Shown here piece by piece: positions 1,629 through 28,177 of a stretch of 35,916 nt of DNA (positions within the stretch are counted from its first letter, which is position 1; every line of letters starts with the position of its first letter). The notes below the pieces were generated by a model. That model saw nothing but the letters and a program-made list of their open reading frames with translations, was not told the DNA's origin and ran no database searches. The position numbers and the translations under genes are program-made. The stretch is from positions 1 to 35,916 of IMG/VR virus record IMGVR_UViG_3300007735_000673; one strand, written 5' to 3'. The stretch is from a virus.

Positions 1629-3080
1629 ATGCCCTATCAAACGAACGACGATCTACCGGGCGCGGTGAAGCGCGTCCTAACCACCGATAAGGCGCGCTCG
1701 ATCTGGCGGCGCGTGTTCAACGACAGCATCGACCAAGGCTATCAGGAAGGCCGGGCATTCGGCGCGGCCTATGCTGCGATCGAGAGCGCGGGCTACACAA
1801 AGGGCAAGGATGGCGTTTACATCGAGAAGGTCGATGAGGCGCTCGAAAAGGTATCGACGGACACGCTGCGCGCCAAGGTCGAAGCGCACAACGCAGAGGA
1901 CGGCGACAAGGGGCGCGTGACTGTCGATATGCTGCGGCAGGTCTATGACCGGGGGATCGGCGCATATCGCACGAACCCGGGCAGCGTGCGGTCCAATGTC
2001 AGATCCCCGGAGCAGTGGGCTATGGCGCGGGTCAACAATTTCCTGCGCGCCATCCGCGATGGCCGGTTCCGGTCTGGCAAGCACGACACGGATCTGTTGC
2101 CAGAAAAGCATCCTATGGCGACCCGTGGCGTCGAGAAGGCCGACTATCAGGGGCGCGATGTCGAACTAGATCAGCCGTTCCGCCTCCCCGCCGGCGCGAG
2201 CAAGAAGTTCGGCGTTTACGTTAAGGACGGCGACAAGACCAAGAAAGTGACATTTGGCGATCCCAAGATGGAGATCCGCCGCGACGACCCCAAAGCCCGC
2301 GCTAATTTCCGCTCGCGGCACTCTTGCGACACCGCGACCGATAAGACTTCGGCGCGTTATTGGTCGTGCCAGATGTGGGAAAGCGGAACCTCAGTCTCGG
2401 AGATGACGAAGATGGACAAGATGGAAAAGCGACAGATCTCGGATGACGTCTTCACAACGTCGATCGAGGCAGTGCAGCGCGCGCAGCAACTCGGAATGGG
2501 GCTGGTTGCGCATATGACCGAAGGGCCAGACGGGCAGGCGTTCTATATGCCAGGGGCGACGCATGAGGACTACCTTGATATGGTGGGCACGGCGGGCATG
2601 ATGTCGCCCGAAGGCGAAGAGGTCGAGGATCCGACGGGCGAGATGATCGAAGCCGTGATTGATGCCGCGATCAGCGCGATCATCGACGCCACGATGGAAA
2701 AGCGCGCGGCTAAGATCATCAAGATCGATGACGAAGCGCGCATCGTTTGGGGCTGGGCGTCGGTCGTATCGGTCGATGGTAAGCCGATGATTGATCGGCA
2801 GGGCGACATCATCTCGGCGGAGGTAATGACCAAGGCCGCCGATAACTTCATGGCCGACGTCCGCACCGCCAAAGCGATGCACGAAGGCGCGCAAATCGGG
2901 GAGGTTATCCACTCCTTCCCGCTGACAAAAGCACTGGGCGAAGCGCTGGGCGTTTACTCTGCACTCGAAGGATGGATCGTGGCTATGAAAGTGCACGATA
3001 ATGGTGTATGGAACAGAGTTAAGAGCGGCGAACTCGCCGCGTTCAGCATCGGAGGCATGGGGAAACGAAATGCCGTTTAA
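1629..3080 (+). CDS. ChaB-domain / XkdF-type prohead protease-like protein, 483 aa
   Basis: Three parts are visible. Residues 1-60 look like a ChaB domain (MPYQTNDDLPGAVKRVL...). The middle has two patterns I associate with phage head-maturation proteins: YRTNPGSVRSNV...SPEQWAMARVNNFLRAI around residues 110-140, and KKVTFGDPKMEIRRDDPKAR...RHSCDT around 200-240. The C-terminal ~120 residues match the XkdF putative serine protease family (IVWGWASVVSVDGKPMIDRQ, then AMHEG, then GELAAFSIGGMGKR). The expected role is cleavage of scaffold and capsid N-termini inside the prohead. The domain stops early: its usual continuation (IELSLVDEPANP) is in the next gene in another frame. The ribosome site is weak (TAGGATC), and the start follows the structured gap. 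Confidence 0.78.
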   Translation: MPYQTNDDLPGAVKRVLTTDKARSIWRRVFNDSIDQGYQEGRAFGAAYAAIESAGYTKGKDGVYIEKVDEALEKVSTDTLRAKVEAHNAEDGDKGRVTVDMLRQVYDRGIGAYRTNPGSVRSNVRSPEQWAMARVNNFLRAIRDGRFRSGKHDTDLLPEKHPMATRGVEKADYQGRDVELDQPFRLPAGASKKFGVYVKDGDKTKKVTFGDPKMEIRRDDPKARANFRSRHSCDTATDKTSARYWSCQMWESGTSVSEMTKMDKMEKRQISDDVFTTSIEAVQRAQQLGMGLVAHMTEGPDGQAFYMPGATHEDYLDMVGTAGMMSPEGEEVEDPTGEMIEAVIDAAISAIIDATMEKRAAKIIKIDDEARIVWGWASVVSVDGKPMIDRQGDIISAEVMTKAADNFMADVRTAKAMHEGAQIGEVIHSFPLTKALGEALGVYSALEGWIVAMKVHDNGVWNRVKSGELAAFSIGGMGKRNAV

Positions 3081-20003: not shown

Positions 20004-20085
20004 TTTTCATTCCTCTCTCGCATTTCACCCTTTCCATCTGCCCCCGCGCGTGGCAGGGGCAGTTTTTGAAGTCTTCAGGTGTCAT
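19981..20085 (-). CDS. Cysteine-rich small protein, 34 aa
   Basis: The ATG at 20085 overlaps the methyltransferase stop (ATGA) with GGAG eight bases upstream. The frame gives [20 protein letters not shown] then KCERGMKNDKNHCL. The four Cys and two His (CPCH, KC, HC) suggest a tiny zinc-binding knuckle, although this is inference. A + strand terminator hairpin lies inside it. The gene is too short to be found by ordinary ORF length limits. Confidence 0.55.
   Translation of the reverse strand: MTPEDFKNCPCHARGQMERVKCERGMKNDKNHCL
20038..20067 (+). terminator. Intrinsic terminator of the late rightward operon
   Basis: CTGCCCC (20038-20044) and GGGGCAG (20056-20062) form a perfect 7-pair stem with an 11-base loop, followed directly by TTTTT (20063-20067). 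Read on the + strand this is a rho-independent terminator about 210 bases after the metallophosphoesterase stop. On the - strand there is no T run after the stem, so leftward early transcription should pass. Confidence 0.75.
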
Positions 20086-21314
20086 TGTATTGTCTCCATT
20101 ACACTTTCGATGAACGCTTGCGCTGCTTCGGCATTGATTGCATTGCCGTAACCGCGCAATCGTCCCACTCTTTCGGCAGCCCCATAAGCCAGCGGGAATG
20201 TGCCGGGTTCAACTGGCCTCCACTTTCCATCCCGGCAGAAGAGCCAATCAGCATCTCGCCAGAAGCCGTTAGTCGGTCCGGGCCTTCCAGCGCCACCGGA
20301 TAACCCATCGCTTCGCACATCTCCGCGTCCACTGTAATCTGCGCCGTTTCGTTGAGATACATCGGAACTGTCGATTGGTTCGCGTTGTCGCGCCTGAAGT
20401 CGCGCCGCTTCTGCATTGTATCCAGATTGGCGTTTCGTTCCAATGCTGTCGGTGTCGGCCAGCCCGCTATATCCGCCGCTCCCGGCAGCTTCAGCACCTT
20501 TTTGTCGTGGTTCCCCTGACTGTAGGCATACTTGCTGCCCGTCGTGTCGTTCACCACTGGCGTCGGCCAGCCCGCCCAAGCCTGCGCTTGCATATTCAAG
20601 TCTGACAGACTGATACCCATCGACTGACTGCCCCGCGCCATGCTGTCCCGCTTGCGCTGCAAGAACGCTTCCGGGGTGCCATTGGCCTGCTCTGCTAAGG
20701 GCGTCGCCCACCCCGCCAGCAATGCCTGCTGCTCGATCCGCCCCTTGGTCTCGCCCGCTTCGTCCATGATCTGCGAGGCTTGCCCGTTCCCGCCCACCCG
20801 GGGCGTTCCCCAACCTACTTCCAACCCACCAGAGGCGCTGTCGGATGTGCGGCGCGCCGACGCCCGCAGCGCAGAGATCGACCGCCCCTGCGGCGTAATT
20901 CGCTGCTTCCAAGTCAGCGCATACAAGGTCGAGCCAACCAAGGCCGTCTTTGCTTGCAACTTGCTCACCAAGCACGACGTTAGGTCGGCACTGGCTGATG
21001 AGGTGATGGAAAGCTGGCCATAAGTGCCGCTCGTCAGCAAACCCAGCGCCTTTGCCTGCCGCGCTGAAAGGTTGGCAGGGGCAAGATCCTGTCCAGACGG
21101 GTCTGTCGTCTGCCCATCCTGCGCGGCGCAGGGCGTAAGACCAGACCCCAATTCCTGCGAAGAAGTGGCACTGGGTAAATCCTTTGAGGTCGTTGGGGGT
21201 AACATCTTCTATGCTCCGTTCATCGATTACGCCGTCGGCAATGTGGCCATGTTTGACCAATTCCCGCAGCCACGCAGCGGCCTTCGGGGCAAATTCGTTG
21301 TAGTATGCGGTCAC
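20082..21314 (-). CDS. C5 cytosine-specific DNA methyltransferase, 410 aa
   Basis: Motif I is FFAGIG at residues 51-56. Motif IV is PCQP at 79-82, with Cys80 the catalytic nucleophile. Motif VI is reduced to GEQV (Glu117, usually ENV). Motif VIII is QRLWWVG and the C-terminal motif X is [10 protein letters not shown]. Between them lies a long low-complexity region with repeated GLADA/GLADT units, probably the target-recognition region. The start is a GTG at 21314 overlapping the previous stop, with GAGG upstream, giving [20 protein letters not shown]. No restriction enzyme is nearby, so host-restriction avoidance is likely. A second complete ORF is nested inside it in another frame. Confidence 0.9.
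20099..21205 (-). CDS. ORF nested in the C5 methyltransferase gene, 368 aa, repeated GW-TP motif
   Basis: This frame is open for 368 codons entirely inside the methyltransferase gene, same strand, different frame. It has its own ATG at 21205 with GGAG eight bases upstream. The product has a patterned sequence: [20 protein letters not shown], then GWGTP, GWATP, GWPTP and GWPTP repeats, and the C-terminal [18 protein letters not shown]. From memory, phage proteins with WPTP repeats and an LNP..WLMG.P end are common hypothetical annotations. The repeats are the alternate reading of GLADT units in the methyltransferase, so they could be by-products. Function unknown. Confidence 0.5.
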
Positions 21315-21535
21315 TGCGGCCTCGACTTCGGGAACGGCGACACGCTGGGCGCGCCTGTGGCTTGGCAGTGGACGCCCTGCACGTCCAGCCCCTGCGCCTC
21401 GAATACGTCGCGCAGCGTGTTGATCTGGGCGCTGCACTCAGCGTAGGATGGGAACATCAGCGCGATGCTGGGCGGATGCGCCTCAAGCGGCCCGCCTAGC
21501 GACAGGGCCATGATTGTCCAGACGGGGATTGTCAT
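21311..21535 (-). CDS. Hypothetical small protein, possible signal peptide, 74 aa
   Basis: It has GGAG eight bases before the ATG at 21535. The N-terminus (MTIPVWTIMALSLGGPLEAH) is hydrophobic and could be a short signal or membrane segment. The middle (FPSYAECSAQINTLRDVFEA) is a helical Cys-containing region also seen in small phage proteins, with a second Cys (GVHC) that could pair with it. It overlaps its neighbours by four bases on both sides. Confidence 0.7.
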   Translation of the reverse strand: MTIPVWTIMALSLGGPLEAHPPSIALMFPSYAECSAQINTLRDVFEAQGLDVQGVHCQATGAPSVSPFPKSRPQ

Positions 21536-27187: not shown

Positions 27188-28177
27188 ATGAAAGAACCAG
27201 AATATCAAGGTGCTGGCTGGGCGATACACAATTCAGACTGCATTGAAGGAATGTGGGCCATGCCGCCCGCGTCTGTCGATTGCTGCATATTCTCGCCGCC
27301 ATTTGGTGACTTGTTTGTTTATTCAGACAGCGACCGGGATTTAGGCAATGCTGGCACAGGCCAAGCGTTTATTAACCAATATGCCTATTTTTGCGAGGCG
27401 CTAACCCGCGTAATGAAGCCAGGTCGGATGGTCTGTGTTCATTGCACTGATCTGCCCGCGCGCAAAGGGCGTGATGGTTATATCGGCCTGCAAGATTTTT
27501 CTGGCGACTTGATCAAGGCCCATACAGACGCAGGGCTAATCTATCATGGCCGCGTCACGATCTGGAAAGACCCTGTAGTCGAAATGCAGCGCACAAAGGC
27601 GCTGGGCCTACTTTACAAGCAGATCCGCAAAGATAGCACTATGAACCGAGTTGGGATGCCCGACTATATGCTATTTTTTCGCGCCCAAGGCGAAAACCCA
27701 GATCGGGTTGAGCATTGCGCCCCGAATGATGCAAAAAACGGCGTTGCAATTGCAAAGGCATGGCTTGCTGAAATGCATCGCCACGGGCTTGCATCTGCCG
27801 TTCCAACGGATGATCAGATTGCTGCTATTTTGCCGCACGTGGAATTTGACGTTTACGATTGGCAAAAATTGGCAAGCCCTGTCTGGATGAACATTCAGCA
27901 AGGAAACGTTTTGAACCGCGTCAAAGGCGTGGGTGACGAGCGCCATGTTTGCCCGCTTCAATTAGATACAATCGAGAATTGCTTGCGACTTTACAGCAAG
28001 CCTTCAGACGTTATTCTTGACCCTTTTAACGGGATCGGATCGACGGGCTATCAGGCCGTTAAAATGTATCGCCGCTATATTGGTTTTGAATTGAAGCCTG
28101 AATATGCAAAGCAGGCCGATAAGAATTTGAAAGAGGCGGAATCGTCGGTCGGAAACCTGTTTGGGTATGCCGCATGA
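27188..28177 (+). CDS. N4-cytosine/N6-adenine DNA methyltransferase, 329 aa
   Basis: The catalytic motif SPPF lies at residues 36-39 and the AdoMet-binding motif DPFNGIGSTG at 278-287, the beta-class order. SPPF favours N4-cytosine, but adenine cannot be excluded. KPGRMVCVHCTDLPARKGRD is a further family segment. No restriction enzyme accompanies it. With the SNF2-type helicase immediately upstream, it probably modifies phage DNA to resist host restriction. The ribosome site is GAGGGT. It overlaps the next gene by ATGA. Confidence 0.9.
   Translation: MKEPEYQGAGWAIHNSDCIEGMWAMPPASVDCCIFSPPFGDLFVYSDSDRDLGNAGTGQAFINQYAYFCEALTRVMKPGRMVCVHCTDLPARKGRDGYIGLQDFSGDLIKAHTDAGLIYHGRVTIWKDPVVEMQRTKALGLLYKQIRKDSTMNRVGMPDYMLFFRAQGENPDRVEHCAPNDAKNGVAIAKAWLAEMHRHGLASAVPTDDQIAAILPHVEFDVYDWQKLASPVWMNIQQGNVLNRVKGVGDERHVCPLQLDTIENCLRLYSKPSDVILDPFNGIGSTGYQAVKMYRRYIGFELKPEYAKQADKNLKEAESSVGNLFGYAA

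Follow-up and report, generated by a model that had tools for sequence, protein, structure and literature searches.

In the two-polypeptide C5-cytosine methyltransferase M.EcoHK31I, the large subunit carries motifs I-VIII and X and has been predicted to hold the target-recognition domain (TRD), and the small subunit contributes only motif IX (PMC3404938). M.AquI is split in the variable region, such that motifs IX and X lie together on its small subunit (PMC3404938). The C5 enzymes of the Bacillus phages SPR, SP-beta, phi3T and H2 carry tandem TRDs that give several specificities (PMC8936443), and orphan methyltransferases of phages can serve as protection from restriction enzymes (PMC4190342).

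The window analysed here is the whole 35,916 nt stretch of IMG/VR virus record IMGVR_UViG_3300007735_000673, a siphophage-like record with genes for terminase, portal, capsid, tape measure, central tail fibre, endolysin, RecT and an exonuclease. A previous sequence-only reading had pointed to a second frame of 368 codons on the same strand within a C5 methyltransferase gene, with an ATG, GGAG at the right distance and a clear C-terminal signature. All of this is borne out. The nested ORF (beta; 368 aa, ATG start, 20099-21205, minus strand) lies wholly within the methyltransferase ORF (alpha; 20082..21437, minus strand, with the GTG at 21314 as the likely real start) and is read in the +1 frame, so that codon position 2 of beta is position 3 of alpha and position 1 of alpha is position 3 of beta. 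GGAG occurs 8 nt before the ATG, and the signature corresponds to C5 methyltransferase motif IX. The features of the locus are:

20082..21314, minus strand: alpha, proposed catalytic subunit of a C5-cytosine methyltransferase (GTG start at 21314, stop at 20082, GAGG upstream); motifs I, IV, VI, VIII and X present, motif IX absent
21214..21217, minus strand: Shine-Dalgarno-like GGAG, 8 nt upstream of the beta ATG; homologues favour the rare Arg codon AGG there
20099..21205, minus strand: beta, nested WPTP protein, proposed target-recognition/motif IX subunit (phrog_31772, 4e-36; phrog_1008, 1e-32; selection tests)
21065..21205, minus strand: beta N-terminal tail, residues 1-47; protein-level constraint in the beta frame undetectable
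20831..21064, minus strand: beta N-domain, about residues 48-125, helix plus beta hairpin, over alpha motifs IV-VIII
20268..20822, minus strand: alpha linker, the cassettes read out of frame, open and amino-acid-neutral
20714..20815, minus strand: WPTP cassette 1
20573..20713, minus strand: WPTP cassette 2
20465..20572, minus strand: WPTP cassette 3
20288..20464, minus strand: WPTP cassette 4
20162..20221, minus strand: C5 methyltransferase motif IX of beta (hhalign to actinophage in-frame enzymes, E 1.6e-7)
20136..20162, minus strand: alpha motif X (RLRGYGNAI), aligning with motif X of actinophage in-frame enzymes (E 0.003)

Alpha matches PF00145 (4e-11) and phrog_363 (1.5e-86), and its match to M.HhaI (1e-15) is restricted to motifs IV-VIII; motif IV reads PCQ, and motif VI is GEQV in place of ENV. 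Beta has no match in Pfam, NCBIfam or PADLOC and a PDB sequence search with it gave nothing meaningful; PHROGs labels both families that it matches 'DNA methyltransferase'. As beta possesses motif IX and an array of cassettes, which alpha lacks, it has the appearance of the enzyme's other half. We therefore favour, with a probability of about 0.85, a split two-subunit C5-cytosine DNA methyltransferase in which beta is the target-recognition/motif IX subunit, with several target sites and exchangeable cassettes.

Compared by reported layout, the locus resembles M.EcoHK31I (which recognises YGGCCR) in that motif IX is on the small subunit only and the rest on the large one. The small subunit of M.EcoHK31I is reportedly encoded in a different frame inside the gene of the large subunit, the nesting that is found here and at the classified homologous loci. 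New with respect to that enzyme are the cassette array in beta and the lack of a recognised restriction partner: the TRD of M.EcoHK31I is predicted in the large subunit, whereas here the constrained cassettes are in beta and alpha is neutral there, and M.EcoHK31I belongs to a restriction-modification system, whereas no restriction enzyme was recognised among the neighbour genes scanned. Beta is also longer than the M.EcoHK31I small subunit. M.AquI is likewise one enzyme divided over two polypeptides but does not separate motifs IX and X between them. The multispecific Bacillus phage enzymes are, like the present one by our interpretation, phage orphan methyltransferases with tandem TRDs; they are however single polypeptides in one frame, whereas here the array lies in a second, nested frame.

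It is common for GC-rich genes to contain long +1 ORFs, and alpha is the only frame annotated in many records; both facts would suit the view that the WPTP frame encodes nothing and simply shadows a GC-rich methyltransferase gene. We give this hardly any credence, as all selection tests contradict it and, within the cassettes, the dependence between the frames runs the opposite way; at the sequence level the shadow is refuted. Upon shuffling of synonymous codons in the alpha gene of the window (200 trials), the longest +1 ORF averaged 128 with a maximum of 260, while 369 is observed, and since shuffling never reaches this length, the frame is not due to chance. The same procedure applied to 150 loci gave an average of 166 vs an observed 327 (p<0.05 in 132/150). 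Because these loci had been found via beta, a second set of 80 was fetched through alpha alone, using residues 1-32 which lie outside the overlap; 67 of them, with alpha complete to motif X by pattern, were counted and 13 were set aside. An open +1 frame is present in 62 of these 67 homologues, as against 3.9 predicted by synonymous shuffling; none has an open third frame. Frequent stops in the nested frame are thus not seen among homologues, and the notion of a large family created by misreading methyltransferases is contradicted by the same count.

All five exceptions retain motif IX of beta: in three, alpha contains an additional segment ahead of motif X and the stop falls there, after motif IX; the remaining two have larger inserts. 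Eight of the 13 set-aside loci were inspected by eye, and beta sequence was present in each of the eight. Beta sequence was therefore in the +1 frame at every alpha-anchored locus examined, including L254, a decayed locus in which both frames are broken at once, alpha being frameshifted and a beta cassette continuing into the alpha C-terminus.

The start signals of beta are also under selection. They were analysed in 85 representatives below 85% identity; pairs of loci are not independent. Asp at alpha codon 33 is encoded by GAT, which generates the ATG of beta, in 65/78 representatives, vs 805/2152 elsewhere (p=3.5e-16). For Arg at alpha codon 29, the rare AGG, which generates AGGAG, is used in 28/85 vs 226/2595 elsewhere (p=9e-10), and in 1/108 cases in the region that encodes alpha only. 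ATG and Shine-Dalgarno sequence occur jointly in 42/85 representatives, as compared to 6.4 +/- 2.4 (maximum 15) under synonymous resampling. Taken with the open-frame counts, beta is a real, conserved nested frame under selection.

The sequence-only reading had proposed an overlap-aware comparison of both frames across homologous loci, and this finds the nested frame constrained in the N-domain, the cassettes and motif IX. The ratio dSN/dNS, in which changes silent in alpha are divided by those silent in beta, is 11.8 in the alpha-only region and, at 8.3, close to this in the beta N-tail, so that the first ~47 residues of beta show no detectable protein-level constraint (phage N15 has stop codons in this part); the ratio falls to 2.8 in the N-domain and to 0.60 at motif IX. 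The corresponding omega values for beta are 0.53 (0.29-0.87) in the N-domain and 0.24 at motif IX. Differences at alpha position 3 amount to 0.46-0.53 in the alpha-only N-terminus vs 0.040 over beta motif IX, silent change in alpha being reduced about tenfold at this C-terminal signature, where the third position of beta itself is the freest.

The cassettes were aligned type by type, with omission from the omega counts of type 2, one of the larger clusters, which is really N-domain sequence. Beta shows strong purifying selection (dN/dS-like omega 0.15, 0.12-0.18) and alpha is neutral in the same alignment (omega 1.17, 0.90-1.51). Nevertheless, not a single alpha stop codon occurs in the cassettes where 385 would be expected under beta-synonymous shuffling, a supportive rather than independent count as loci had been chosen with alpha open. 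Being neutral yet stop-free, alpha is read through this region as a sequence-free linker, selected only for openness. Four GW-TP units had been described as falling on GLADA/GLADT-like units of the methyltransferase; there are indeed four (W132, W166, W213 and W249), opposite RLGNA, GVGDA, GLADA and GLADT, and just two are literal GLADA/T. The tight co-constraint envisaged for the two sets of units did not hold up, since only the WPTP frame is constrained in the cassettes (0.15 vs 1.17). GLADA is thus the by-product, or shadow, of WPTP; the reverse is rejected, as selection in the cassettes runs the opposite way. Dual coding can be eased in this way, one frame being constrained and the other a neutral linker.

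A weak match of beta led to Streptomyces phage Sebastisaurus, where gp34 has motifs I-VIII and gp35 an LPTP array followed by LSPEFAEWLMGLDPGW (motif IX) and IGNGVVPHQA (motif X). The whole order is found in one chain in mycobacteriophages DillTech15 (gp66), Saroj (gp68) and Aggie (gp53), and is split into two adjacent genes in Sebastisaurus (gp34/35), TygerBlood (gp79/78) and Colucci (gp82/83). A profile built from beta aligns with the part of these actinophage C5 enzymes that holds the TRDs and motif IX (E 8.6e-10, probability 96.5%; E>0.4 for reversed and column-shuffled control profiles), and a profile of the cassettes alone matches more weakly (probability 74%, E 2.9e-5). The motif IX segment taken alone is matched by beta and not by alpha (E 1.6e-7), while the motif X segment next to it matches alpha (E 0.003) and not beta. 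As array, motif IX and motif X form one chain in the actinophages, this chain is here divided between two frames. The order of array, motif IX and motif X is thus shared with the actinophage LPTP methyltransferases, but those use a single frame or two adjacent, barely overlapping genes, their motif X stays with motif IX, and no overprinted N-domain was seen in them.

The identical order in a single frame would also suit a fused polypeptide made by ribosomal frameshifting, from alpha motifs I-VIII into the beta frame for the cassettes and motif IX and perhaps back again for motif X, and such a product would account for the neutral alpha sequence in the cassettes. We nevertheless consider this improbable, because beta has its own Shine-Dalgarno sequence and ATG under selection, because its N-domain, upstream of the cassettes, is selected in the beta frame, and because alpha is kept stop-free across the cassettes, which would be needless under a shift. 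Slightly less probable still is that beta acts independently as a regulator, chaperone or anti-defence protein and is dual-coded with the methyltransferase by happenstance. The sequence-only reading had suggested such roles for a widespread dual-coded partner, and a distinct ORF with its own start and no match in PADLOC and Pfam could be taken to agree. The widespread dual-coded partner stands; the suggested roles are not the best reading, as beta contains both a C5 methyltransferase motif IX and the cassette array that goes with it, motif IX is lacking from alpha, and beta sequence accompanies alpha in +1 at every alpha-anchored locus examined.

In the split-enzyme reading, beta very probably carries the parts that choose the DNA sites for methylation. 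Alpha would provide cofactor binding and catalysis through motifs I-VIII and the late motif X, and beta, translated in +1 from its own start inside alpha, would supply WPTP cassettes of about 37 residues in tandem, acting as TRDs, and then motif IX. The two would pair, and the resulting single enzyme would methylate several short sites, each cassette specifying one of them; this methylation would protect phage DNA from host restriction. We infer the pairing, the methylation, the relation of one site to one cassette and the anti-restriction role; the multi-site, anti-restriction role is proposed because of the tandem TRDs (PMC8936443) and the protection conferred by orphan methyltransferases (PMC4190342) described for other phages. 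Docking of beta on alpha by the N-domain is a guess. As to the origin, we speculate that in a monomeric actinophage-like enzyme two compensating frameshifts may have moved the array and motif IX into another frame, and that an upstream start may have been gained thereafter.

The role of the cassettes as TRDs is suggested by the actinophage in-frame relatives, and by position they sit between motifs VIII and IX. We found 456 cassettes in 109 clusters from 146 loci, with 1-6 per locus and a median length of 37 aa; one cassette type is found at differing positions and with many different neighbours. Cassettes are swapped between phages, and such swaps would change specificity; if cassettes do set the target sites, the methylation specificity of a phage could be read from its sequence. 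Five loci (L022, L151, L191 in phage Bas75, L219 and L236) are minimal versions with one cassette-like unit and a diverged motif IX, possibly single-site enzymes.

With tblastn, the nested protein matched in 211 phage records, among them epsilon15; an IMG/VR scan gave at least 573 confirmed relatives and GTDB genomes 78. Wherever the pattern script classified both frames (about 165 loci), beta is at +1 inside alpha, a few of these loci having also a second, broken alpha piece. The arrangement is also present in gene 58 of phage N15. A WPTP protein that does not overlap a methyltransferase, the search for which had been suggested, was not found in proteobacteria, where every beta found overlaps alpha; a Lacticaseibacillus match was noise. 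Both frames are annotated in Xanthomonas phage PhiXhv-18, as two 'DNA methyltransferases', and in K1ind2, as 'C-specific methylase' and 'Mte8-like protein'. Our results make a strong case for a long gene pair of double-stranded DNA phages in which one member lies entirely within the other on the same strand. The pair occurs in at least several hundred viral contigs as well as in laboratory phages such as N15, epsilon15 and BASEL Bas75, and accounts for the common WPTP 'hypothetical proteins' and 'Mte8-like' annotations. A literature search within a limited collection found no paper describing this nested phage arrangement. We lean, at somewhat better than even odds, towards a large proteobacterial-phage class that has a nested specificity subunit, more than 100 interchangeable cassette types, an alpha linker, and an N-domain that arose de novo by overprinting of motifs IV-VIII and probably serves to dock beta on alpha.

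AlphaFold modelled beta with low confidence (pTM 0.29 for the window version and 0.23 for a one-cassette version), with pLDDT of about 80-93 at residues 71-120 in the N-domain. A PDB fold search with the models gave no match, and a viral fold search with the beta model gave only four under E 1e-3, of which two are named, both phage proteins and one of them a methyltransferase.

Short extra alpha segments occur between the motif IX position and motif X at L155, L124 and L183 (EPGVARVASSNRVGRL in epsilon15). At L185 (phage phiKX1, 2512-3030), and also at L226 and L268, an HNH-endonuclease-like ORF in the beta frame is inserted between beta motif IX and alpha motif X, with alpha open throughout the insert (549 aa in phiKX1); this is perhaps a homing element that has settled in a dual-coded site. 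Elsewhere in the window, a second methyltransferase-like ORF (27188-28174, plus strand; phrog_67, PADLOC MTase_II) has also a helicase-family match and adjoins a helicase ORF. Another ORF (1629-3080, plus strand) matches both phrog_1530, labelled 'DNA methyltransferase', and head maturation proteases, so that this PHROG is probably mislabelled.
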